Shown: piece by piece, positions 3,755 through 17,399 of the stretch
Layout of the letters: the number at the start of each line of letters is the position of its first letter
Numbering within the stretch: the first letter of the stretch is position 1
Assembly (NCBI GenBank): GCA_040754075.1
Contig: JBFMDH010000003.1
Location: 202,307-266,306 of the forward strand
From: Acidobacteriota bacterium
GTDB taxonomy: Bacteria; Acidobacteriota; Blastocatellia; UBA7656
Length of the DNA stretch: 64,000 nucleotides
Direction of reading: 5' to 3'
The notes under the pieces: generated by a model
What the model was told of the DNA's origin: nothing
Seen by the model: the letters and a program-made list of their open reading frames with translations, nothing else
Databases searched by the model: none
Translations under genes and position numbers: made by a program

Positions 3755-3896
3755 CGCCAATACACCCTCACAAACAGATTGATTATGGCAACGCCATGGT
3801 ACTGAAAAACACCCCTCATTTCAGTCGTGATGCTTAACTATACTGAACTTTTCAAATCCTGGATACACCAATGAACACAAATTATTGGACGAAGCT

Positions 3897-3983
3897 AATC
3901 TGCCGAGGCTTCCGCTGTCTCCTGAACCCCTACGGAAAAATAGGTCGCGTCCGGGTGATGGAAGACCAATGCCGAAACGCTCG
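3897..3983. repeat. Left copy of 87-bp direct repeat (metH 3'-end duplicate)
   Basis: Bases 3897-3983 are identical over 87 bp to 11456-11542, which are the last codons of metH. On the minus strand this copy still reads SVSALVFHHPDAT...EASAD and then a TAG stop, whereas the intact gene ends in TGA just outside the repeat. It is therefore a detached metH tail. It starts 143 bp past the start of the 410-residue secreted gene and ends 34 bp before the helicase stop codon. Confidence 0.95.
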
Positions 3984-4017
3984 TACTTTGAGATCGGTTG
4001 GACAATTCATTTGTGAC

Positions 4018-7000
4018 TTATTCAAAAAATTCTATTACACGATGACGACTCAACTTGTCGTGATGAGTCTGATTGCTAAAGTTTTTCAGACAATCATAAC
4101 AAGCAACTTCGCATTTACATTTCTCACAAACCTTCTGTGCAGACGCTACGGTTTGCTGCCAGTTATCAAAGCCTTCTTTAACAAACCCTGCGCCGCCTGG
4201 AGTGTTGTCGAAAAGTATTATCTCTGCTTTCGCATCAGCAATATTGCGATTTGCCAACCAACGCCAAGCAACACCAATATCTGATGTTTCGATTTCGAGC
4301 ATCTCACATAAGCCTTTTTGCAAAGCATAAGCTAAAGACTCAATTGGCGGTTTGGGTTCAATCGGACGCGCAATCAAACAAAAGCTTTGGAATTGATGAC
4401 CATAAGCCAAAGGCTTCGTCCATGGAGTTTCATTTGAACAATCTAAACTGCCTTGCATTGGGCGTAACTTTCTATGCTTCTTGCCAGCTTTAAAGAAGTG
4501 TAACGGCTCGCTGCATCCGCAATGCGCGCAGAGCATGAAGCCTTTATTTTGTGGACCTAAGTTGTATCGAAACAGACTGCCTGAAGTTTTTAACGCAATT
4601 TTAAATGCCCCTCTGTCTTCAAACTCATCATCATTTACTGAATCAATGAAATGTGTCAGCGATTGCCTTTGTCGAACTAACGAAGCTCGCCGATGTCTTG
4701 CTGCATTAACATTGCTTTTTTCAATTCGCACACTGAAGGTTGCTGGCTCAACGAAAGGTTTGATGTGTTGTGTTGTAATAGAGCGTCCGCAAACCTCACA
4801 ACTTGTTATCAAAGGGTCTTGTGTTCGTGAGGTACGAATTTGTAAACACTCAGGGCATTTTGAGTACCACCAACGCTCTGGTTTGTCTGTGCGACTGACG
4901 ACATATAAGCCTGAACTGGTGAAGACCTTTTTGTGAGCAATCACTTGCGCCCCCGGAGCGAACTCTGAAATAGCAATGGCTCTATCCCGATTGAGTTCAA
5001 CGTCGCTGTCACTCGACCATCGACTCCAACCCGTTTCCAAAGTGACAGTGTCCAACGGAAAAGCATAGCGTGGCAAGAAACCGCGTTTTGCCATAACTGC
5101 GACAATATCGCTATCAAGCAAATTCTTTACAGAGCGATCAATGTCGCCTGTCTCTTTACCCTCATTAAAAAATTTCTTGCGCTCGCTCATCAATTCAGAT
5201 AGCTCATCTGCAATGTTGCTTAAAACTTCTTTATAGGTTTCTTTCGACTTTTCTTTGCCCAACTCAAAACCATCAATCGCTCCAAGCAAAGACTGTCCGG
5301 CTGGTGAGCAAAAAATGTCGGCAACGCTTTGCGTTTCGAGCCAAGCAATAAAATCTAAATGCAAATCCGACGGATAAAGCTGCAACCAATCTTGTGGAAT
5401 GCCCACGCGGGAATCGGTTGGCAAAAAAGCTGCCAAACGGATTTTTTGTTTGACATCACGAAGAGCCTTTTCGTTAAGAATTTTGACGCGCAAGAAACGC
5501 GCAAAAACAACAGCGTTGAAATGTCTTTGCGCTATGACACGATTTTCTATAAAAACGGTTGGCGTGCGAACTTCGCCAGACATCAGACGCTGAGGCTCAC
5601 GCCACATATCTGCATCATACTTTGAACGCCGGCAGAGTGTGACGCACACAGCATTCTTATCTTGTCCGCGTCCCGCTCGCCCAACTCTCTGCACATAACT
5701 TGCGCTTGAAGGCGGCGCGTTTCGCAATAAGACTTTTTGCAAATCACCGATATTAATGCCCATCTCAAAAGTCGTCGTGCTGCTCAAAAGGTTTACTCCC
5801 TCAGCACGGAAATCATCTTCAATCTTCTTGGCAAGGTCTTTGTTGATTTGTGCTGTGTGTTCTTCAGATTTCAAAGTTGTAAACTGGGGTTCGCCAGTGC
5901 CTGCCACCCAACGAGCGATGATATTGGCTTGAGTTGCATCGAATGGTCGTTCTTCTAATTTCCCGCTACAGGCTTTGCGGGGACAACACTGTTTAGCGGC
6001 GTAAGCTGTCACCATACCGCAACGATTGCAAATATACCGCGCTGTATTTTTCACAACAGCTAATCGCTCGTGGTCAAGCCGATACCTACCAGTACCTTTT
6101 TTGTTGATAATCAAAAGGTCGTGCTTAGTTAAAAAAGTCCAAACCTCTTCAGCTAATTTGAGCGTTTCTGCATCTGATTGACCAAATAATCGACGCAAAT
6201 AGTCTGTGATAAAATTGTCATTGTAGCTACCATCTTTCTTAAGAAGCGGTAGCCAGCCGTTGGTGATTTTTTGACCCTCACGACGAAGCGCGTAACTGAT
6301 GTCAGCAGTCACTCGCCCGAATGCTGGCGCATCATGCGCGACACCATTAGGCAAAGTAAATGCTTTACGTTGACGCATAAAACCAAGCAAGGTTTGTAAA
6401 ACCGCTTTTGCTTCGACCAATGAAAGCTCAGGTAAGAGTGATTGAAACGCTTTCATCTCGGTTTCTTTGACTTCGTATTTGATTGCAACCAATCCTAAAT
6501 CTTCCGCTGATTCGCGGGCTGAATCAAGAATGCCGAAATAGCTGAGGGTTTCCGCGATCCAAAGATTGCCTTTCTCTTTTGCGCTTGGGTTTTCATCCGT
6601 ATAACGCGATACAGGCAGAAAGAATTCGGGATCGTGAATATCCGAATTGCGCTCTTCCGCAATCTCTGCAAGCAACTCTCCAAGATCACTCACTGTCAGA
6701 GGCTCATTTCTATTATGAATAAGTTTTACGATCTTGCGCCCCATATCGTGTGCGAAAGTTTCTTCCTCTAATAGTGACGGAAAAGCGGCTGCACGTTGGC
6801 GATGGTCAGTAAAACAAAGCAATTTGCGTGGCGGCTTGCCTTTGGTTTTTGGTTGACTGACTTGGAAATGCGACAAAGGAATTGCCATCGCCAAGCCTGT
6901 CTCATCGTCGGATTCTTGAAAACGACGCACAGGCTCTATGCCTGATCCGTTACGCGCTCCGCAATTGGGGCATGCAGCTAAAAGTTTTTTCTGTTGGCTG

Positions 7001-8904
7001 TAGATGTCTTGAAATCTCTCTGCTGCACATTGCCGATGAAAAATTTTGATTGGTCGCAAGTGTGGGGCTTCGCAACTGCAATTGTCTCCTTCACCCGAAT
7101 CGCTTTTCTTGCCACATACAACGCACCACTCCAGCGAAGCAGGATTAACTAACAATTTGTCCTGTTCTTCGTCTTCTTCATCAGCCTTTGCCTGTATGGG
7201 ATAAGGCAAATCATCCTCAACGCTAAAGTAAGACCAAAACGAATCTGATGCCCAACCAAGCTCTGTACTAAAAGAGTCGAAGGCAGGCTTTTGTATTTGC
7301 TCGTCGTTGTCAGGGTTTTGAGCGCGACGCGGCCCTAAATCCTGCAATGCGCCAAACAAGTAACCGCATTTGCGACAAGAAACGACTTCAACGAGTTGCG
7401 ATCTTTGTGCAGGATAACATTTCGGGCATAGACCTTCGGGGATGTCGCTGTCGTCGCTCTTGCGCGAAACGAAAAAGGCAGGTTTATCGTTGCTTGAGCG
7501 CCCCGGACAATTTCGGTGCAAACAAACGTGTAAGCCATCTTGCGCTCGCACGAAATAATGTAAACGAGTAGGCAGCAAATCTTCGTGTGCGTCATCCTGT
7601 TTGGCAGCAGCGACGATTTCCAACAATGCTTGTAGCCCATCTTCCGCCTGTTTGTTCCCTCCCCATAAACTCTTTGCTGCGTCTTTCAACAGAGTCGGTT
7701 TGGTTAAAATTTCTGCGCGCAAGCGATAGAGGTTCTCGTCGTAGTTGAATAAATCTGCCAAAGTTTTTGCCACGTGATTGTGCGATAAAACTGTTCGCAC
7801 ATCGGCTTCTTTATTTTGTTGCAAGATTTCTGCTGCTTTTATGTACTGTCCGGGAGTCGGACAAACTGATGGTTGCAAAAGGAGTGGCGGCGCAGGTGTG
7901 CCGTAAATCGGATTCGGTTCAATAAATTCTTCGCCAAACAGTGCAGACGCGAAGGCACGAACTCTGCGTTTGCTGTCTTCCTCGTTCGGATTGCCAAGCG
8001 TTGCTGATGTGGCGATGCAAGACAATTGCTCTAACCCTAGTCTGTCTTTGAGTCGTCGAACCAAGAAAGCAATCTCTGTTGCCTGCACGCCGCGATAGGC
8101 GTGGACTTCATCCAAAACTAAAAACCTGAGCCTTGCGTTTTCAAATATCGGGGCATCAACAGGACGTTCCATCAAGTATTCGAGCATTGAAAAATTGGTG
8201 ATGAGAATATGTGGCGGATTGGCGCGAATGTCATCCCGATGATTGAGGCGATTGGACGGATCATTTCTTAACTGTTCGTTCAGTTTGCGATTTACTTCAC
8301 GTTGCAATTCGTTTTGCATCAACCCTTGTTCGCGGAGTTGTGTTTCAAAAGTTTGCTTTAAACGTGATTCATAATCTTGCTGATTATTTGGAGTTTGTCC
8401 TGTGAATCGTGCAAAAGTAATATGCTGGTGCTTCTTCAACATAGTTTCCCATTCTTCGAGTTGGTCATTAACCAGAGCATTAAGCGGATAGATAATGATG
8501 GCACGTAATCCGGGCGACGAATCATGTAACAAATCATCAAGAATCGGGATTTGATAACAGAGCGTCTTGCCACTGCTTGTGCCAGTGGCGATGACCGCAT
8601 TCTGCCCATTCAAAATCAATTGTAAAGCGTCTGTTTGATGTTGATAAAGATTGCGCCCTTTCAATCTTTCATGGATAGTTGCTTTGGTTTTCTCATGCAG
8701 TGGCAGATTTTCTAAGCTTACACCTATTTTATACATCTGCGATTTTTCCAGAAATGCACCGTGAACCAATTCCGCCATCGTGAGTTTTTCATGCCAAGTT
8801 CTTTCAGCGTAGGCAAATTGCGGGTGGAAACGATATTCAGATTTGAGTAAATCCAAATACGGATTGAAAACTTCCTGCTCGAAACGATCTGTTAATGATT
8901 TCAT
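4018..8904 (-). CDS. Giant DEVH-box helicase with DUF1998-type zinc-binding C-terminus (DruE-like)
   Basis: The start is ATG 8904, seven bases after GGAGAG. An ATG at 8961 would overlap the upstream gene and has a poorer site. In the 1628-residue product a Walker A (ATGTSSGKT, ~106-114), DEVH (265-268) and ATSATLG (~298-304) define helicase domain 1. Motif V (TTFEMGINIGD, ~1045) and motif VI (QRVGRAGR, ~1075) define domain 2. The long insert between them carries several CxxC zinc ribbons. The C-terminus has a cysteine cluster (CEKCKCEVACYDC, ~1590-1604) typical of DUF1998/MrfA-type helicases. Such helicases are core to the Druantia (DruE) and DISARM (DrmA/DrmB) anti-phage systems and to DpdJ. 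The two-gene layout with the 731-residue partner best fits Druantia type III, but assignment needs a profile search. Confidence 0.85.
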   Translation of the reverse strand: MKSLTDRFEQEVFNPYLDLLKSEYRFHPQFAYAERTWHEKLTMAELVHGAFLEKSQMYKIGVSLENLPLHEKTKATIHERLKGRNLYQHQTDALQLILNGQNAVIATGTSSGKTLCYQIPILDDLLHDSSPGLRAIIIYPLNALVNDQLEEWETMLKKHQHITFARFTGQTPNNQQDYESRLKQTFETQLREQGLMQNELQREVNRKLNEQLRNDPSNRLNHRDDIRANPPHILITNFSMLEYLMERPVDAPIFENARLRFLVLDEVHAYRGVQATEIAFLVRRLKDRLGLEQLSCIATSATLGNPNEEDSKRRVRAFASALFGEEFIEPNPIYGTPAPPLLLQPSVCPTPGQYIKAAEILQQNKEADVRTVLSHNHVAKTLADLFNYDENLYRLRAEILTKPTLLKDAAKSLWGGNKQAEDGLQALLEIVAAAKQDDAHEDLLPTRLHYFVRAQDGLHVCLHRNCPGRSSNDKPAFFVSRKSDDSDIPEGLCPKCYPAQRSQLVEVVSCRKCGYLFGALQDLGPRRAQNPDNDEQIQKPAFDSFSTELGWASDSFWSYFSVEDDLPYPIQAKADEEDEEQDKLLVNPASLEWCVVCGKKSDSGEGDNCSCEAPHLRPIKIFHRQCAAERFQDIYSQQKKLLAACPNCGARNGSGIEPVRRFQESDDETGLAMAIPLSHFQVSQPKTKGKPPRKLLCFTDHRQRAAAFPSLLEEETFAHDMGRKIVKLIHNRNEPLTVSDLGELLAEIAEERNSDIHDPEFFLPVSRYTDENPSAKEKGNLWIAETLSYFGILDSARESAEDLGLVAIKYEVKETEMKAFQSLLPELSLVEAKAVLQTLLGFMRQRKAFTLPNGVAHDAPAFGRVTADISYALRREGQKITNGWLPLLKKDGSYNDNFITDYLRRLFGQSDAETLKLAEEVWTFLTKHDLLIINKKGTGRYRLDHERLAVVKNTARYICNRCGMVTAYAAKQCCPRKACSGKLEERPFDATQANIIARWVAGTGEPQFTTLKSEEHTAQINKDLAKKIEDDFRAEGVNLLSSTTTFEMGINIGDLQKVLLRNAPPSSASYVQRVGRAGRGQDKNAVCVTLCRRSKYDADMWREPQRLMSGEVRTPTVFIENRVIAQRHFNAVVFARFLRVKILNEKALRDVKQKIRLAAFLPTDSRVGIPQDWLQLYPSDLHLDFIAWLETQSVADIFCSPAGQSLLGAIDGFELGKEKSKETYKEVLSNIADELSELMSERKKFFNEGKETGDIDRSVKNLLDSDIVAVMAKRGFLPRYAFPLDTVTLETGWSRWSSDSDVELNRDRAIAISEFAPGAQVIAHKKVFTSSGLYVVSRTDKPERWWYSKCPECLQIRTSRTQDPLITSCEVCGRSITTQHIKPFVEPATFSVRIEKSNVNAARHRRASLVRQRQSLTHFIDSVNDDEFEDRGAFKIALKTSGSLFRYNLGPQNKGFMLCAHCGCSEPLHFFKAGKKHRKLRPMQGSLDCSNETPWTKPLAYGHQFQSFCLIARPIEPKPPIESLAYALQKGLCEMLEIETSDIGVAWRWLANRNIADAKAEIILFDNTPGGAGFVKEGFDNWQQTVASAQKVCEKCKCEVACYDCLKNFSNQTHHDKLSRHRVIEFFE

Positions 8905-8942
8905 ACGCTCTCTCCAATTTTTCTTTTCATCGACCACAGCAA

Positions 8943-11138
8943 TTAGGGTTCGGCATTCCATAAATCATCAACAATGCGAACTCCTTTTTTTTGCAGATAT
9001 GTTCGTATAAGTTTTTTCAGGTCTTTTTGCCAAGCCATATAGAAATAAGGCAAACAACGAGGCTCGGCTACTACCTCAATAACAGGCAACCCATATTGAG
9101 GAATATGTTTGCCGTTCTCAAATCTAAAAATAGTTTGTCGCTCAAGTAATCCTGGGTTTTCTTTAGAAATCTCCCTATATAAGCCCCAAAGCAAAGATGG
9201 GTCGCCACAGAAACTTAAATGACATTCGTTGGCTGTATCTATAACAGCGAGTGATTCAGCAATTTGCCATTTCTGACCGCGTTGTATAAGCAATCCGTAA
9301 GATTCATACTTGCGTAGCAAAGCCACTGAGAATCGTTGAGAGTTTGGCGCAAGAATCTCTTTAGCCAATATCATGTCTTCCCATTTCAGCCCTTCAACTG
9401 ATTGGCACAGTAAGAAAAAAGGAAGCATTTTGCCGGGCAAATTTTTCCAAAACTTTTCCAGTTTGGGAATCGGCTTAACCACTTCAATTTCCTTTTGAAA
9501 CTTGAGGCCCAATTTGGAAGAAGTCAGATAAATGCTTTTGCGATTGCCAGTCAGATCAGGAGGTGCTAAGTATGCTCCCAGTTCTGCAAATGGATTGATT
9601 CCATCAGAACTTCTAAGCGGTTTGCGTTTCAGGCGAACAGCCTCTTCGTCCCAAATCCAAAAATATATCTCGCGCTCATTGTCTTCGTATCGCTTTTTCC
9701 ATAAGCCATATAATTCATACTCATTAGACTCATCAATACTGACTTTGAATTCTCTTTCTAGCAGAGAAAGATTGTTATCAGAAAAACCTTGGGGAATAAC
9801 TACACACACGATAGGCAGGTGTGCGATTCTAGTCACCTCAGATTCATGTGAGAAATTTGCCATCTGTGCGCCTTCGCCAAAGTAGAAACGTGCATCGATG
9901 CGCGCACTATTGCGAAAACGAATTTGGTGTAAACCATCTCGACTTGTAAAACAGATTTGCGGGATTTTACCAATAGGGAATAGTTTGGTTACATAACAAA
10001 ATGTGCCATCTTCAAGTTCATACTTTTCATTTAGGGGATTTTCTTCCTCATCAAATCCTTCTCGTTTGAATTCAGTTAATGGTTGCTCAGCAATTAAAAT
10101 ATAGCTGCTGATTGGCAACTCCTGTCTTTCAGGATTGACGAATTTGTTTTTGACTATGTCAAATAGCCCATAAGGCGCAAGCCCCCGCAACATTTGCCTT
10201 TCGCTCAGTGTTTGATTATTGAGCGTAAGGAAGAGTTTCTTCGTAAAGGCGGCAGCATTTAAATTCAAACTATTTGAGTTGGCGCTGGCAACTTGCTTAA
10301 GATTCGCAATCTTCCAATCTGCAGGTAATTTGGCGCGCTCCACACCGGGTAAATCTAACCGGATTCTGCAAGGGTCTTCTTGCCAAACCAAAGACGCTCG
10401 ATTCTTAAAAAGTGATTCTGGGTTGCTCGGACGCAAAAACTCTGCGGTTTCAGGTACTTCTTCAAAATATTCTGCACGTAGCAAACTTGCTTGTTTTCTT
10501 TCTATGGTCTGCTTTTCGTTCTCGCTAAGAACGGCACGAGCGTCGAGAAGTTCTTGAATAAAACCAGAAGCGGCTTCGCGGTTGGCTAATAAAAAATTCT
10601 TCAATCTTGTGCGCCCTCCCGCTCGCCTTTCGATAGCTTCTTTCCACTGTGTTTCCGAAAAATCACGCCATTCATCATGCAACAAAGCCCACGCACAAAT
10701 TTTTAAGAAATCGTCCCACAACGAAAGCGGAATTCCTATGTAAAAAACGGCAGATCCTACATAGTCCATAGAAGTTTCTCTTTTGAGAATCTTTAAGCCT
10801 AAATTTTGTGCTGCGTCGGCGAAATAGCGATTAATATCTTGTTGTTGCTTAGCTGCAAGAGGTGGACAGCCAACGGCAGCGGCAAACGGCCTCCAAAAAT
10901 TTCTTTCGTTGTATTCATAAAAGGCTAGCCCGCCAAACAAAGCAACTAGACAATGAGGGTAGCGCAGATCAGCTTGCCAGTAACGCCACTCTGTTTTAAT
11001 AGAAAGAATGAAATCTTCCCACTCAGCACGGCTCGGCGTTATAGTCAACAACGCGCCTGCCGTTTGTCGCGCAGATAAACTAAGCTCTTTAAATTTGGCT
11101 TCAAATAAAGCATCCCAAGACGCCAAGCTATCCAACAC
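8943..11138 (-). CDS. 731-residue partner of the helicase, possible DruH-like protein
   Basis: The start is a GTG at 11138 preceded by GGGGAACCA. No better ATG is seen upstream. The stop lies 38 bp before the preferred helicase start, so the two form an operon. The sequence is soluble and Trp/Tyr/Phe-rich, with no signal peptide, membrane segment, Walker motif or obvious nuclease motif. Notable stretches are an N-terminal helical region (RYPHCLVALFGGLAFYEYN, ~60-80), a central beta-rich part (~380-560) and a C-terminal region ending in LIRTYLQKKGVRIVDDLWN. In Druantia type III a large uncharacterised protein (DruH) precedes DruE, and position and size make this a candidate. I do not recognise its fold. 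DISARM-like or DpdJ-associated partners are alternatives. Confidence 0.7.
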   Translation of the reverse strand: MLDSLASWDALFEAKFKELSLSARQTAGALLTITPSRAEWEDFILSIKTEWRYWQADLRYPHCLVALFGGLAFYEYNERNFWRPFAAAVGCPPLAAKQQQDINRYFADAAQNLGLKILKRETSMDYVGSAVFYIGIPLSLWDDFLKICAWALLHDEWRDFSETQWKEAIERRAGGRTRLKNFLLANREAASGFIQELLDARAVLSENEKQTIERKQASLLRAEYFEEVPETAEFLRPSNPESLFKNRASLVWQEDPCRIRLDLPGVERAKLPADWKIANLKQVASANSNSLNLNAAAFTKKLFLTLNNQTLSERQMLRGLAPYGLFDIVKNKFVNPERQELPISSYILIAEQPLTEFKREGFDEEENPLNEKYELEDGTFCYVTKLFPIGKIPQICFTSRDGLHQIRFRNSARIDARFYFGEGAQMANFSHESEVTRIAHLPIVCVVIPQGFSDNNLSLLEREFKVSIDESNEYELYGLWKKRYEDNEREIYFWIWDEEAVRLKRKPLRSSDGINPFAELGAYLAPPDLTGNRKSIYLTSSKLGLKFQKEIEVVKPIPKLEKFWKNLPGKMLPFFLLCQSVEGLKWEDMILAKEILAPNSQRFSVALLRKYESYGLLIQRGQKWQIAESLAVIDTANECHLSFCGDPSLLWGLYREISKENPGLLERQTIFRFENGKHIPQYGLPVIEVVAEPRCLPYFYMAWQKDLKKLIRTYLQKKGVRIVDDLWNAEP

Positions 11139-11453
11139 TGGTTCCCCAACCTCTTGATGAAAATTTGAGAGCGGACGTCCACTGTTTAGAAACCGCGAAA
11201 CCTGTTTTGATAAGCCGAAGAATGATTCAAAGATTGAAGTTATGAATCAATCGCCAGTTCTAACTTGTCGGTCAAAGTAGTCTGAGTTTTTCAGAAGGGT
11301 GGACGTCAACTAATAAATCAAGCACTGTTGGGAATAAGTGCGGTTCATTATTGCGAACAGATTAGTCGAGACTACTACGTCCACCAACGGCAGGAATAAT
11401 AAGACAGAAATAGTTTGATGTCTATTGACTTTGTGTACAGGAAATAACAGAAA
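11139..11453. promoter_or_regulatory. Helicase-cassette leader with three GTGGACGT motifs
   Basis: This 315-bp gene-free stretch lies between the 731-residue gene and the metH stop. It contains GGACGTCCAC (11173-11182), GGTGGACGT (11298-11306) and the inverted ACGTCCACC (11378-11386). An AGTAGTCT/AGACTACT pair sits alongside, so 11275-11386 can fold as a broken hairpin. The repeated motif upstream of the cassette's first gene is a candidate operator or element end. No open frame of note is present and no promoter hexamers were convincing. Confidence 0.35.
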
Positions 11454-14400
11454 TCAATCTGCCGAGGCTTCCGCTGTCTCCTGAACCCCTACGGAAAAAT
11501 AGGTCGCGTCCGGGTGATGGAAGACCAATGCCGAAACGCTCGCTTCCGGTTCCATCATAAATCCGTCCGTGAGTTCGACGCCGATGTCTTCAGGGTGGAG
11601 AAGTTTGAAAAGCCCTGCCTGCGATTCCAAATCGGGGCACGCCGGATAACCGAACGAATAACGCTTGCCGCGATAACGCGCCTGAAAAAGATTCTGGCGC
11701 GACAAATCTTCGCTGTCGGCAAATCCCCACGCGGCGCGAAGTCGCGCGTGCAACCATTCGGCGGCGGCTTCGGCGGTTTCAATCGCTAAAGCCTGCAAGG
11801 CATACGAGCGCAGATATTCGCCCTGTTGTTTGGCGGCTTCTGCAAGTTCACGTATGCCGCTGCCTGCCGTGGTGACAAACATCGCGATGTGGTCGCGGCG
11901 GATTTCGCCGTTATGAATTTCCAGCGGCAAAACATAATCGCTCAAACACAAGCCGTCATCTTTGCGTTGCCGTGGGAAAGTAAAGGTTTCAATCGGCATA
12001 TCGGAATTTTTATCGCTGAAAAGGTGAATGCGATTGCCGCTGGACTCGGCTGCAAAAAATTGCCACAAAACACGAACCTGCATCGCCCCTGCGCGACATT
12101 CTTCTTTCACCCGTTCGATTTTTTCTTCAAGCTCCAGGGCTTTCTTATCGCCCGCCGCCAGCATATCTTTGAAGCGCCCGCGAAAGCCCAGATGTTTGCC
12201 GTAGAGCATTTGCGGATTGATATAGCTCCAGATTTCATCAAGGTCTGTGACCGGTAAAATATGACGCTCCACATCGGGCACCGCAGGGATAGCGACATCA
12301 AGCGAAACGCGCGCGCTGCGCTGTTCGGTTTCAAGGGTTGCCGCTGGTGAAGTTTGCACCGTTGCGCCGTTCGCCTGCGCGTTCAATTCGGCAATCAGTT
12401 GGGCGCGCGCTCCCGCATCCATCAAACGATTTAAAATATCCAGCCCGCTCATCGCATCTTTCGCGTAGGCGACCGTGCCGTCATAAGCCGGAGCGATTTT
12501 CGTGCGGGTGAATTTATCGGAAAGCGCCGCGCCGCCAACCAGCATCGGCAGTTCAATGCCGGCGTCTTTTAAATCCGCAGCGGTGACCACCATCTGTTGC
12601 GCCGATTTGACGAGCAGACCCGAAAGCCCTATGGCGTCGGGTCGATGTTCACGCGCCGCAAGTATCAACGTCTCCGGCAAAACTTTAATGCCGAGATTGA
12701 TGACCTGATAGCCGTTATTTGAAAAAATGATGTCCACGAGATTTTTGCCAATGTCGTGAACATCGCCTTTGACGGTTGCCAGGATGACTTTGCCGCGCGA
12801 CGAGGTGTCGCTCTTTTCCATGAATTGTTCAAGGTGCGACACCGCGGCTTTCATGGCTTCGGCAGATTGCAACACTTCTGCGACGATGAGTTCGTTGGCG
12901 TTAAACAGTCGTCCGACCTCATCCATGCCGCGCATAAGCGCCCCGTTGATAATCTCAAGCGGCGCGGCTTCCTGTAACTTCAAATCCAAATCAGCAATCA
13001 GTCCGTCTTTGGTGCCTTCGATGATGTAATTCGCGAGCCGTTCATCAAGCGATAAATTCGATGCAGCGACTTTCACACGTGAAGTCTTATTGCGAAAATG
13101 CGCGGCAAACGCAGCAATCGGGTCATCGCCGCGATTCCACAACAGGTCTTCCGCGAGATGGCGTTCTTCTTCAGGGATAGAAGCATAGCGTTCAAGTTTT
13201 TCCGAATTGACGATGGCGAGGTCAAGCCCGGCTTTGGTGCAATGATACAAAAAGACCGAGTTTAAAACTTCGCGTCCGGCATCCGGCAATCCAAACGACA
13301 CATTGCTGATGCCTAAAATGGTTTTGCAAAGCGGCAACGCTTCTTTGATTAATCGCACGCCTTCGATGGTTTCAACGGCGCTGCCGATATAATTCGCGTC
13401 GCCGGTCGCGCAAGGAAATACCAGCGGGTCAAAGAGAATGTCTTCCGGGCGAATGCCAAAATCTTCGGTTAAAAGTTTGTGCGAACGCAAAGCGATTTCC
13501 AGTTTGCGATGGCGGGTGATGGCTTGCGCCTGTTCTTTGTCTTCGTCAATGCAACCGACAACTAAAGCTGCGCCGTAACGGCGAGCCAGCGGCGTCACCA
13601 GTTCAAATTTTTCCAAACCGTCTTCAAGGTTGATGGAATTGATAATGGATTTGCCCTGACAGAAAGTGAGGGCGCGCTCGATTGCCACCGCATCTGTGGT
13701 GTCAATCATAATCGGCACTTTGACGATGCGCATCAATTTGTCATAGAAGCGGTCAACATCTATGAGTTCATCACGGTCGGCGTTTTGCAAATTGACATCG
13801 ATGATGTGCGCGCCGCCTTTGACCTGCTGGCGTCCGATTTCGGCGGCTTCTTCGTATTTTTCTTCGCTGATGAGACGTTTGAATTTGCGCGAGCCGACTT
13901 CGTTGGTGCGCTCGCCGACTATCAGCGGGCGATTGTCATCGTTCGCCTCAACGATGTCCATGCCGGAAAAAAATGTGCGATGAATTTTTTTCGGAAGGCG
14001 CGGGCGTTTGCCTTCGAGCATTTGCGCGAGCGTGCGAATGTGTTCGTAAGTGGTGCCGCAACATCCACCAATCAGGTTTAACCAACCTTTATCAACAAAG
14101 TGTTCCAAGGTTGACGCGAATTCCGTAGGTGTTTCCAGATACTCGCCGGTCACCGTATCAGGCAAGCCGGCGTTCGGATAACACGAGATGCGATGTTCAC
14201 TAATCTCTGCAAGACTGCGGATATGATCCGTCATGTGTTCGGGTCCGGTCGCGCAATTGAGTCCCAGCGATAAGAGATCGGCATGCATCATTGAGACGGC
14301 GAGGGCTTCGGCAGTTTGTCCGGCAAGCATTGCCTGCCCGACCAACTCAACGGTTGCCGAAACCATCACCGGAACGCGCGTACCGATTTCATCAAATAAA

Positions 14401-14951
14401 CGTTCAATGCCGACGAGCGCGGCTTTGATATTGCGGGTGTCAATCATCGTCTCGACCAGCAAAATATCTGCGCCGCCGGCAACGAGTCCTGCCGCCTGGT
14501 CGTGAAATGCCGCGGAGAGTTCAGCAAAGGTAATGCCGCCGGTAAGTGAAATCGCTTTAGTTGTGGGACCGATAGAACCGGCGACGAATCGCGGTTTACT
14601 TACGGTCGAATATTCGGCGGCGGCTTGACAGGCGAGTTCGGCGGCGCGTTTGTTCTGCTCAAACGTCAACTCTTGCAGGTTGTATTCGGCAAGCACGATG
14701 GAGGTGCCGCCGAAGGTGTCGGTTTCGATGATGTCTGCGCCGACTTCGAGATATTGGCGGTGAATGCCGAGCACCACATCGGGGCGCGTGAAGACTAAAT
14801 TTTCGTTGCAGCCTTCGAGATGCGCGCCGCCAAAATCTTCGGCGTGCAGGTGACAGGCTTGCATAGCCGTGCCGGTCGCGCCATCCAGTAACAGGATGCG
14901 CTCGGCTAAAACTTCTTCGAGTAACTTGGTTCGTGACTGTCTATCGGTCAT
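11454..14951 (-). CDS. metH: Cobalamin-dependent methionine synthase MetH
   Basis: The 1165-residue product transfers the methyl group of 5-methyltetrahydrofolate through cobalamin to homocysteine, giving methionine. All modules are present. The homocysteine domain has the zinc-binding GGCCGTT (~297-302) plus an upstream Cys. A pterin-binding domain follows (IVGERTNEVGSRKF, ~345). The cap and B12-binding module has DVHDIGKNLV (~730, the cobalamin-ligating DxHxxG). The activation/SAM-binding domain spans ~900-1165 (GYPACPD and a HPDATYFSVG tail). The length is close to the E. coli enzyme. The ATG 14951 has CGGAG ~12 bases upstream and begins 17 bp after the methyltransferase stop, so metH may be cotranscribed with the restriction-modification genes. 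Its last ~28 codons form one copy of the 87-bp repeat. Confidence 0.97.
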   Translation of the reverse strand: MTDRQSRTKLLEEVLAERILLLDGATGTAMQACHLHAEDFGGAHLEGCNENLVFTRPDVVLGIHRQYLEVGADIIETDTFGGTSIVLAEYNLQELTFEQNKRAAELACQAAAEYSTVSKPRFVAGSIGPTTKAISLTGGITFAELSAAFHDQAAGLVAGGADILLVETMIDTRNIKAALVGIERLFDEIGTRVPVMVSATVELVGQAMLAGQTAEALAVSMMHADLLSLGLNCATGPEHMTDHIRSLAEISEHRISCYPNAGLPDTVTGEYLETPTEFASTLEHFVDKGWLNLIGGCCGTTYEHIRTLAQMLEGKRPRLPKKIHRTFFSGMDIVEANDDNRPLIVGERTNEVGSRKFKRLISEEKYEEAAEIGRQQVKGGAHIIDVNLQNADRDELIDVDRFYDKLMRIVKVPIMIDTTDAVAIERALTFCQGKSIINSINLEDGLEKFELVTPLARRYGAALVVGCIDEDKEQAQAITRHRKLEIALRSHKLLTEDFGIRPEDILFDPLVFPCATGDANYIGSAVETIEGVRLIKEALPLCKTILGISNVSFGLPDAGREVLNSVFLYHCTKAGLDLAIVNSEKLERYASIPEEERHLAEDLLWNRGDDPIAAFAAHFRNKTSRVKVAASNLSLDERLANYIIEGTKDGLIADLDLKLQEAAPLEIINGALMRGMDEVGRLFNANELIVAEVLQSAEAMKAAVSHLEQFMEKSDTSSRGKVILATVKGDVHDIGKNLVDIIFSNNGYQVINLGIKVLPETLILAAREHRPDAIGLSGLLVKSAQQMVVTAADLKDAGIELPMLVGGAALSDKFTRTKIAPAYDGTVAYAKDAMSGLDILNRLMDAGARAQLIAELNAQANGATVQTSPAATLETEQRSARVSLDVAIPAVPDVERHILPVTDLDEIWSYINPQMLYGKHLGFRGRFKDMLAAGDKKALELEEKIERVKEECRAGAMQVRVLWQFFAAESSGNRIHLFSDKNSDMPIETFTFPRQRKDDGLCLSDYVLPLEIHNGEIRRDHIAMFVTTAGSGIRELAEAAKQQGEYLRSYALQALAIETAEAAAEWLHARLRAAWGFADSEDLSRQNLFQARYRGKRYSFGYPACPDLESQAGLFKLLHPEDIGVELTDGFMMEPEASVSALVFHHPDATYFSVGVQETAEASAD
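11456..11542. repeat. Right copy of 87-bp direct repeat, inside metH
   Basis: This copy is identical to 3897-3983, offset 7559 bp. It encodes the final ~28 residues of MetH (from SVSALVFHH to EASAD). The repeat ends at the last sense codon, and the sequences diverge from the second base of the stop codon (TGA here, TAG in the left copy). Confidence 0.95.
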
Positions 14952-14967: not shown

Positions 14968-16473
14968 TTAAAAACCATATAGATCTTTAATCAAATTATT
15001 GATTTCTGCTTCATGATTTTTGGGATATTCGTGATGGTTCTTTAAAGCAAACAAAATTATTTCTACTGCCGCATTAATTGCAGTCAAAATATCTTCGGGC
15101 GGCACAATGAACGGAATTTTTTTTATGTAGTTTGCCGAGTTGTTTGTCGTTGGGTTAATGGTACGAATCAGTTGATTACAAGTCGGTGAATTGAAGAAGG
15201 CTAATAGATAAAAAAGCCATCGTGCGTCTTTCGGAAAAACGCCGACGATAGATTGGTCGAATAACTGATTGTCAATTAATGCTGCGCTAATTGACGATGA
15301 TGAAACCATCGGCACGCCTACGCCGCGCTTGAAATAAAACTGTGAATTCTGGAATCGTGATTTCTTGTCCTGCTTAAAGTGTGCAACCGATTCGACGTGC
15401 CAATCCATAAACCAGCAATCCGGTTTGAAATAACGTAAACCACCGCCTTTCATAATCGGCACAAAACAGACAGACGCATCAATTCCATTGAATCGCTGTT
15501 CGTCGGTGATTGACGAACGAAAAACTGAGGTGGGATGCACCGTTTCATAATTTTTAGCATTTTTATGTTGCGCGGAAAGCGTTCGTAGAAATTTTTTATC
15601 ATTACCTGAATAAAATCCGGTTACGCAATCGGCAACATCACCGACGCGAGTTTGGCATTGATTTATTAACCGCAAAACTTTATCGCTGTGGGCTATAAAC
15701 AAAGCGTAATCAATATTGTTTTGAAGGTCGCTTTGCTTGAAAACGAATGAGGACGAATGCTCAGACTGCGCCAATTCATCAACATTTTTCAAATTGGTAA
15801 TGACTTTGAAGCGATTATCAGTTCGTTTATTTTCATCTCTGCATTTTTCCAGGGTGATGATGCACAGATTTGAATAACCGAAATTGACCTTTGGAAAAAA
15901 TGACGAGGGAAACAAACAAATTTCCTTTATACAAGTTGTCTGCAAAATAAACTTCCGCAATTGTGCATGACGATGAAGATTCAAAAAGGTATCGGGAATG
16001 ATGAAAACTAAAATCCCGGTTTCGCGCAATAATTCAATACAACGATACAAAAAGAGTGCATAGGTTTCTTTGACATACAGGTTGGGGAAAAGTTTTTTGA
16101 GATATTTGCGTTTATCAAAGTCTTGCCACGCGCCGTAAGGCGGATTACCGATAATGCGATCATATCCCCTCCCAAGGTTTGTAAGCAAAATCAAGGTTTG
16201 ACTGGTGAGAGTGTCATCACAGATTACATTGATGTTTTCTTGAAATTGATATTTTGCTTTAAGCGATTCACCGGCTTGCGGATTAAGTTCGTAAGCGTCC
16301 AGTGAAAGATTGATGCCTGAGTTGAGCAGGGCATCGACAAACACCCCATCGCCAGCACAGGGTTCCAGTACCCTGACGCTACCTGTGAGCGAAAGTTTTT
16401 TGACCATATAACTGACTATCGAAACGGATTTCGTATAGTGCGGTCGGTAAATTTGTTGACTCGGTTTTACCAT
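14968..16473 (-). CDS. Type II DNA adenine-N6 methyltransferase
   Basis: The 501-residue protein has the S-adenosylmethionine motif VLEPCAGDGVF (35-45) and the catalytic NPPY (110-113). This is the order of gamma-class N6-adenine methyltransferases of TaqI/Eco57I type. The N-terminal RPHYTKS fits motif X. The C-terminal half (~300-501) is the likely target-recognition region and includes an IKKIPFIVPP segment typical of TaqI-like families. The start ATG 16473 overlaps the end of the endonuclease gene by 7 bp, so the two are translationally coupled. Its job is to protect host DNA from the partner nuclease. The sequence is clearly more A+T-rich than metH, consistent with horizontal acquisition. 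Confidence 0.9.
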   Translation of the reverse strand: MVKPSQQIYRPHYTKSVSIVSYMVKKLSLTGSVRVLEPCAGDGVFVDALLNSGINLSLDAYELNPQAGESLKAKYQFQENINVICDDTLTSQTLILLTNLGRGYDRIIGNPPYGAWQDFDKRKYLKKLFPNLYVKETYALFLYRCIELLRETGILVFIIPDTFLNLHRHAQLRKFILQTTCIKEICLFPSSFFPKVNFGYSNLCIITLEKCRDENKRTDNRFKVITNLKNVDELAQSEHSSSFVFKQSDLQNNIDYALFIAHSDKVLRLINQCQTRVGDVADCVTGFYSGNDKKFLRTLSAQHKNAKNYETVHPTSVFRSSITDEQRFNGIDASVCFVPIMKGGGLRYFKPDCWFMDWHVESVAHFKQDKKSRFQNSQFYFKRGVGVPMVSSSSISAALIDNQLFDQSIVGVFPKDARWLFYLLAFFNSPTCNQLIRTINPTTNNSANYIKKIPFIVPPEDILTAINAAVEIILFALKNHHEYPKNHEAEINNLIKDLYGF

Positions 16474-17399
16474 TTCAAATATTGATCGAGATGATGTCTC
16501 CTGAGATGCTCAAAGGTATCGCTTCGTAAATCGTTGTCCCAATCTATATTGCTATCAATCCAAGCTTTCAAATCAAAGCCGGAGAGTTTTTTGATCGCTC
16601 CGTAGGTCTCATCGCCGCAATAAGCTTCCCAAATACCTGAGCGTTTAAGAGTTTGAAAGTAGTGATTATTCGTGTCTTCTGCGGCTCTCACCAAAAGCAG
16701 GCAACGATAGCGCGCTTCCAGATTTTTGTAGATGGTTGCGACTAATAACAACCGGTTGGTATTGCCTTTTTCATTTGAGCCGAACCCACTTTTGAAATCA
16801 ATAATGAATTTTTCTCTCCGTTGCTCAAAATGTAAATCCGATTCCAGCTTTATTTCCCCTGAATCAACTAAGCCCCAAACTTTAGCGTAGTATTTTTTTA
16901 ACTGTGATTTTTGATCAGGAGATAGCCCCAAAGCATCAATATAGTTTTCTATTTCATCGGTAAGGCTTTGCTTCACTTCTGAGAAAAGAGGCGGAATAAA
17001 TAAGGTGAGTTTCTTCAAAGGATGCTGAAAGCAAAGTTTGCAAAAAGGCTCCCATAATTCGCCGATTCTGCGTGAAAACGCCATATAATCATAAGCCCAA
17101 ACATCATTGCGAGACTCTATCATAACCACATAACTACAGTAGGCGATCATCAGGCAGCAGCGCAAAATAGCATCATTACTCCACTTCTCAGCGAGGGCTT
17201 TTTGCATAACCGCAGCGAGAATGTTGTCCTTTGTTGCAACGATAGCTTTGTTTATCGCCGCCGCTCGTTCTTTGAACTGAGTTGAGCCGTAAGAGAGTTT
17301 TATTTCGTCAAGCGATTCACTCGCTCTTTCTCTAAAGTAAGCAAGCAATTCCGCTTTTTTGTTATTCAAAGACCGGTCAATATTAAACATAATATGCAC
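16467..17399 (-). CDS. Probable type II restriction endonuclease
   Basis: This 310-residue soluble protein lies directly upstream of, and overlaps by 7 bp, the DNA methyltransferase. A candidate PD-(D/E)xK site is visible: KLESDLHFEQ (Glu186/Asp188), then a beta strand with FIIDFKSG, giving Asp201 and Lys203. The flanking regions are helical. Type II nucleases are poorly conserved, so the call rests on operon position, size and this motif. I cannot name the specificity or isoschizomer group. The start is ATG 17399 (MHIMFN) with a weak ribosome site, 15 bp after the membrane-protein stop; ATG 17390 is an alternative. It is A+T-rich like its partner. Confidence 0.75.
   Translation of the reverse strand: MHIMFNIDRSLNNKKAELLAYFRERASESLDEIKLSYGSTQFKERAAAINKAIVATKDNILAAVMQKALAEKWSNDAILRCCLMIAYCSYVVMIESRNDVWAYDYMAFSRRIGELWEPFCKLCFQHPLKKLTLFIPPLFSEVKQSLTDEIENYIDALGLSPDQKSQLKKYYAKVWGLVDSGEIKLESDLHFEQRREKFIIDFKSGFGSNEKGNTNRLLLVATIYKNLEARYRCLLLVRAAEDTNNHYFQTLKRSGIWEAYCGDETYGAIKKLSGFDLKAWIDSNIDWDNDLRSDTFEHLRRHHLDQYLKW

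Follow-up and report, generated by a model that had tools for sequence, protein, structure and literature searches.

How a two-gene cassette came to lie between two identical copies of the end of metH, the gene for B12-dependent methionine synthase, is the question raised by this part of the window (the whole stretch of DNA analysed, 64 kb). An earlier note had read the arrangement as integration into the 3' end of metH with regeneration of that end. The features on which the answer depends are listed below.

3761..3896, no strand assigned: host flank predicted to follow metH directly in an empty site
3897..3983, minus strand: detached copy of the metH end, same frame, TAG stop (sequence comparison)
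3984..4017, no strand assigned: left end of the insert, 34 bp from the helicase stop to the detached tail (from coordinates)
4018..8961, minus strand: DruE-like helicase, 1647 aa, with DEAD, Helicase_C and MZB zinc-binding domains (PADLOC DruE3, 2.9e-169; Pfam)
8943..11138, minus strand: partner protein, 731 aa, distantly related to upstream-encoded proteins at other DruE loci
11139..11455, minus strand: leader of the pair, inside the insert, with a promoter-like site (11424-11396) and three ACGTCCAC copies
11456..11542, minus strand: functional 87-bp copy, the metH end up to the first base of its TGA stop (sequence comparison)
11454..14951, minus strand: intact metH, 1165 aa, with five Pfam domains including Met_synt_B12, 82% identical to family relative G001
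14968..17399, minus strand: type II restriction-modification pair outside the repeat-bounded insert (Eco57I-like methylase, 14968-16473; REase_II, 16467-17399)

Direct comparison of 3897-3983 with 11456-11542 gave 100% identity over 87 bp, as the earlier note had described, and the 87-bp sequence is present in exactly two copies in the 7.58-Mb genome. Within the 64-kb window, the pair is the sole exact direct repeat of at least 20 bp with copies at least 1.5 kb apart. About 1e-43 pairs matching over 87 bp would be expected by chance if equal base use is assumed, which excludes a chance origin. The repeat corresponds to metH from -88 to -2 when bases are numbered from the final one of the stop codon, and includes just the first base of that codon. 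Beyond it the right copy reads TGA and the left copy TAG, so that the divergence falls inside the stop codon and both copies terminate at the same codon. The left copy sits in a 40-aa open frame in which the metH reading frame is kept; the right copy is the working metH end and the left a detached tail with a stop. The further suggestion that the insertion is recent agrees with the lack of differences over the 87 bp, but the age is bounded loosely, as 0/87 differences limits divergence to at most ~3.4% (95% upper limit).

Between the copies lie two large ORFs (4018-8961 and 8943-11138, both on the minus strand), the end of the partner ORF overlapping the start of the helicase ORF by 19 bp. All remaining listed ORFs in the interval are shorter and overlap these two, which upholds the view of helicase and partner as the sole cargo, and scans with Pfam, NCBIfam and PADLOC detected no integrase in the two-gene cassette, also as previously claimed. 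The GC content of the cassette is 0.41-0.48, compared with 0.51-0.55 for metH. Six family relatives, whose metH proteins are 58-82% identical to that of the window, have neither the pair nor the restriction-modification genes nor any of three left-flank genes beside metH in the stretches compared (3.5-20 kb), and the DNA after metH in these six genomes, judged by eye and with no genome of the same genus among the relatives drawn, is unrelated to that of the window. In G001, one of the left-flank genes has a homologue on a contig other than that of metH. Taken together, the Druantia-III-like cargo, the lower GC content, the absence from six family relatives and the recurrence behind other metH genes argue for an insertion, and by its sequence the cassette looks like one that was placed behind metH and left a duplicated metH end. 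For this lineage we infer the insertion event itself, which tail came in, the route and the donor. It is very improbable that the arrangement is an assembly artefact or a local duplication without transfer: repeat-bounded segments are prone to misassembly, but this one is internal to a 395-kb contig, the genome's listed completeness is 100% and its contamination 0.11%, the composition of the cassette differs from that of metH, and independent cases are present in other genomes.

These cases were found by searching the last 87 residues of metH against 396 genomes of the phylum (E up to 0.1). Matches were obtained in 318 genomes, the weakest of which are perhaps not metH, and all 42 genomes with several matches were searched again. 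In four of the 318 (G000, which is the genome of the window, G200, G209 and G347), a second metH tail lies on the same strand of the same contig, 0.9 to 7.6 kb downstream of metH. Nucleotide comparison showed that all four tail repeats run into or past the stop codon; besides the 87 bp of the window, they extend from -99 to +15 in G200 (115 bp, 97.4% identical), from -153 to +4 in G347 (158 bp, 88.0%) and from -424 to +6 in G209 (432 bp, 91.9%). Detached tails appear to decay, given the 88% identity in G347 and a 1-bp deletion in that of G200. Among the 58 genomes of the relatives set, no recurrence was found besides G000. A 70-bp metH remnant lies 2.4 kb downstream in G368, and an apparent tail in G046 sits at the edge of a contig and was not counted. 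To gauge sensitivity, metH ends were compared with their own downstream DNA (up to ~12 kb) at 40 further loci, 20 from relatives of the positives and 20 others, five of them from the G314 genus and one with 362 bp downstream. No tail of at least 80 bp was found at these loci; the G368 remnant was recovered, along with six weak matches of 27-61 bp at 74-89%, one of which (G081) touches the stop. All 40 loci came from single-match genomes, so the check gives no estimate of a rate. The sequences suggest that new genes have repeatedly been gained at the spot behind metH, with no insertion enzyme in evidence.

The metH gene of G314 is cut short by the end of its contig. A second copy of the C-terminal part, matching it at 87% over 625 bp, is on another contig, and past the metH end common to both the sequence continues in two different ways; we infer a fifth detached-tail case, divided across contigs. 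The second contig (G314:C85, locus L200) is 3644 bp long, its ends overlap by 119 bp, and it holds the insert and one metH C-terminal copy; it may be an excised circle or result from a long repeat that was collapsed during assembly. A circle would bear on a Campbell-type single crossover, in which general recombination acts through a circular intermediate already carrying a metH tail. Such a crossover yields exactly the order tail, insert, tail, and 100% identity between the copies would be natural if the circle came from the same species. The G314 contig can be counted in its favour but is explained equally well by collapse of the repeat, no circle was seen, and 87 bp is short for efficient crossover. 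For the window we consider entry of a circle by this route quite unlikely.

The contents of the other inserts are mixed. That of G347 encodes a HicB-family antitoxin and, upstream of it, a small ORF with no Pfam match, which we take to be HicA-like. PADLOC PD-T4-6 models match the kinase domain of a serine/threonine kinase encoded in the G200 insert, and the G314 insert encodes a protein with a bacterial Ig-like domain; the inserts of G209 and G223 gave no clear family assignment, and in G368 a Phd/YefM match fell below the curated cut-off. None of ten insert proteins scanned with Pfam, a subset of the ORFs of the inserts, is a recombinase. Other cargo between metH-tail repeats, which the earlier note had proposed looking for in relatives, is present in G200, G209 and G347. 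Its idea of metH as an integration site for defence modules is supported as regards recurrence behind metH, but "defence" is too narrow a term for a HicB-family antitoxin, a kinase and unassigned genes.

An empty site, with the flank following metH directly, could be recognized for the parallel case G209, in agreement with the prediction made for the window. There, nine of twelve sister loci carry the DNA from beyond the detached tail at a distance of 8-101 bp behind metH; the same flank lies 4.5 kb after metH in G223 and 3.6 kb after it in G368, and one sister contig is too short for the comparison. In the family of G314, a common flank is located at +44 to +3929 after metH in 10 of 14 loci, all ten belonging to the same genus as G314. 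These distances in the G209 and G314 groups mark the region behind metH as a spot of turnover in two genera or more. The relatives compared for G200 and G347 showed no flank match directly behind metH. Within the G209 genus, metH ends are mosaics of different relatives: over its last 226 bp the detached tail matches G180 exactly, and the fused tail is closest to G164 (0.937), then to G180 and G172 (0.919). Such mosaics would be expected if metH recombines often. The G209 insert (L198) contains, about 3.6 kb in, a further copy (~240 bp) of the DNA found behind metH in sister species, an arrangement that suggests two successive insertions.

Based on these observations, we lean towards insertion of the window's pair behind metH by general (RecA-type) recombination without a dedicated integrase. 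The incoming DNA would have carried a metH end followed by the Druantia-III-like pair; one side would have been anchored by homologous pairing in metH, and the other joined illegitimately inside the resident metH, 88 bases before its end. A single integrase would give a single tail start, and the junctions in the four genomes, at -88, -99, -153 and -424, differ and have no common motif by eye, which favours homologous anchoring with illegitimate joining. The circle entering by one crossover is the nearest rival to this course of events. Homology-facilitated insertion has been proposed for displaced 3' genes in Vibrio cholerae; according to the excerpted account, ordinary homologous recombination is more frequent than such joining by orders of magnitude (PMC5361080). 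Several points count against general recombination here: neither a donor nor an empty site was found for this lineage, two copies identical at all 87 bp call for a very closely related donor or for subsequent conversion, and the recurrence at metH hints at a site preference that random joining leaves unexplained.

Site-specific integration, with the 87 bp as attL and attR of a small island that has lost its integrase or is served by one encoded elsewhere in the genome, would account for clean direct repeats at the 3' end of a gene and for regeneration of that end. An integrase acting in trans is conceivable, as the genome itself has nine tyrosine-recombinase domain matches, and an excerpted precedent is the microcin H47 island, which moves without an integrase of its own (PMC3191183, PMC5426353). 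However, no integrase is encoded in the insert and no resolvase-family match was found genome-wide; the junctions vary between genomes, though different integrases could account for the variation; and in the 87 bp no inverted repeat was found with arms of 9-12 bp matching over two-thirds and a spacer of 5-9 bp, a search in which shuffles gave no useful control. A 30-bp exact pattern from the repeat was absent from viral contigs, and the insert has no similar DNA in plasmids or phages. We regard site-specific integration as unlikely. The earlier reading accordingly holds in part: the cassette is insertion-like with a duplicated gene end, but the lack of a recombinase, the differing junctions and the missing inverted repeat speak against a site-specific event. 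CIMEs are the comparable island type for an att-bounded element without an integrase. Of the features of integrase-encoding islands, a recombinase inside the element is absent, and the attachment site is not constant (-88, -99, -153, -424) if the four cases are one family.

Whether metH is favoured was examined against other genes. Among 979 genes in 176 loci, tail repeats of at least 80 bp reaching the stop were found for four, all of them metH; the loci were chosen around metH, DruE and the genome's own integrases, positives included, and so provide a rough background for other genes but no rate for metH. Three further repeats end 22-25 bp short of a stop. Those in L133 and L118 reflect DnaB-like paralogues and neighbouring proteins with shared ends, respectively. 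In L128 (15021-18221, a Methanosarcinales MAG), hisS lies directly behind a DruE gene and a 128-bp copy of its end, 89% identical, is found ~1.8 kb downstream, with one 575-aa gene in between; the copy ends 22 bp before the hisS stop would be reached, and from its sequence this looks like a real case at a gene other than metH. The same screen also gave a 46-bp match behind a doubtful ORF in L198, short tandem repeats in L080 and the 70-bp metH remnant of G368 (L217).

An rpoB control (PF04560) matched 357 of the 396 genomes, 14 of them with two matches. Bar one split gene with overlapping pieces (G216), none of the 357 has a second copy on the same strand of the contig in the 20 kb that follow the gene. 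Tail-like rpoB C-terminal copies are present on other contigs in G074, G227, G310, G381 and G398 and may be tail duplications, contamination or strain mixture; the other second matches were weak, came from split genes or lay within other large ORFs. The comparison of 4/318 for metH with 0/357 for rpoB gives a one-sided p of ~0.05, a contrast weakened by the five rpoB copies on other contigs. In view of the hisS case and the rpoB control, metH is at most enriched and not unique; with a hisS tail in a Methanosarcinales MAG, the process that displaces tails is probably general and metH perhaps favoured. A stronger proposal, that the metH 3' end serves throughout the phylum as a docking point for small cassettes without a recombinase (defence, toxin-antitoxin, kinase), which are tagged with a metH end, move between genomes by tail-tail recombination and regenerate the gene each time, appears distinctly doubtful.

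The pattern is already known as insertion with long target duplication, which by definition involves no transposase or integrase in the insert; what is new is the Druantia-like cargo and the recurrence behind metH. Nobusato et al. (2000) reportedly described such insertions for restriction-modification genes of Helicobacter pylori. In the present case, a bounding repeat (87 bp, 100%) was found, the insert holds no transposase or integrase, and an empty site is seen for the parallel G209. As far as excerpts of the H. pylori reports extend, insertion of restriction-modification genes with long target duplication likewise leaves a defence unit between long direct copies of host sequence, whereas here the cargo is Druantia-like, the target is the metH end and that target recurs in other genomes of the phylum (PMC1643837, PMC4978471). 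The T6SS immunity arrays of V. cholerae, again from an excerpt, share a conserved upstream anchor, a new module behind it and an old 3' part pushed downstream, but there an immunity gene is displaced and here the tail of a housekeeping gene (PMC5361080). The microcin H47 island of Escherichia coli resembles the insert as a small integrase-less island between direct repeats; in the sections available, excision and integration are demonstrated, the repeats are extensive and imperfect and the cargo is different (PMC3191183, PMC5426353). Many variable chromosome spots have no integrases, and recombination at flanking core genes is indicated for them in the part of Oliveira et al. available (PMC5635113). 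Detached gene tails are direct, roughly datable scars of recombination at core genes, and a gene that repeatedly collected them would make the mechanism testable. No report of metH as a target of such insertions was found among the papers listed by literature searches, some of which also matched "meth" and in which subscription journals were mostly absent.

On the other side of metH, the restriction-modification pair (GC ~0.40) is placed between the metH start and a 131-aa ORF; in G001 the corresponding interval is occupied by another gene, of 142 aa. Around 14968-17399, neither an exact nor a long repeat was conspicuous. With this pair on one side and the Druantia-like pair on the other, metH lies between two sets of defence genes that both appear to be acquired.

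For the cargo itself, relatives of the helicase, which carries an MrfA zinc-binding domain (Pfam), were collected using a four-sequence helicase alignment against genome contigs, and the best 80 of 575 confirmed loci were kept. Among these best 80, the closest helicases are from a Ca. Brocadia MAG (68%, best segment) and an Acidobacteriaceae MAG (64%), followed by a Dadabacteria MAG (62%) and Brevifollis (46%). The partner had no match in Pfam, NCBIfam or PADLOC, but a homologue is encoded directly upstream of DruE in all four closest relatives, at 40-43% in three and 28% in one. These homologues were reached via the helicase loci; a pattern search of genome contigs missed them. A profile of five partners detects larger proteins upstream of other DruE relatives (best 1.6e-12, 63-sequence set), and four upstream proteins of other DruE loci are likewise unnamed by PADLOC. 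A search for close relatives of the partner gave only its own copy in the 396 phylum genomes, and none in plasmids. Homologues beside the closest DruE genes, together with the reach of the profile, indicate a conserved, scattered, Druantia-III-like pair. Of the features of Druantia III, DruE is recognized (PADLOC DruE3), and the upstream partner has a remote profile link and no PADLOC match. Judged by these similarities, the cassette is a Druantia-III-like pair of a DruE-like helicase and a remote DruH-like partner, and is probably antiviral. Druantia type III, in excerpts of two reports, likewise has two genes, a DruE-family helicase and a protein encoded just upstream, with DruH the likely sensor and DruE a helicase-nuclease (PMC13316683, PMC13192584); the window's pair probably acts in the same manner. 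In comparison with DruE-adjacent upstream proteins (mostly ~900-1350 aa, n = 63), the partner in the window is shorter (731 aa) and remotely related. The case thus adds a compact Druantia-III-like pair with a divergent partner.

Flanking repeats as a trait of the helicase pair were considered and rejected. No exact repeat of at least 24 bp flanks the helicase at any of the 80 DruE-related loci (best 80 of 575), so the 87-bp repeat belongs to this insertion and not to the defence system. The test used helicase match coordinates, 62 of the 80 loci hold at least 3.5 kb on the partner side plus 0.5 kb beyond, and the routine recovers the 87 bp of the window. Among loci with a partner homologue, L067 and L069 have no repeat of at least 15 bp and the L068 sequence is too short for this test; L066 (Ca. 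Brocadia) holds a gapped repeat pair of ~50 bp (21 bp exact) with inverted-repeat character, taken for a dispersed element.

In the leader, sites like the promoter-like one at 11424-11396 are no commoner in the region than in shuffles. The motif ACGTCCAC occurs at 11175-11182, 11299-11306 and 11377-11384, so that all three copies in the 64-kb window fall within 210 bp of the leader, in alternating orientation; three copies per window are reached in 7 of 100 shuffles. The trio may be a candidate operator or protein-binding site.
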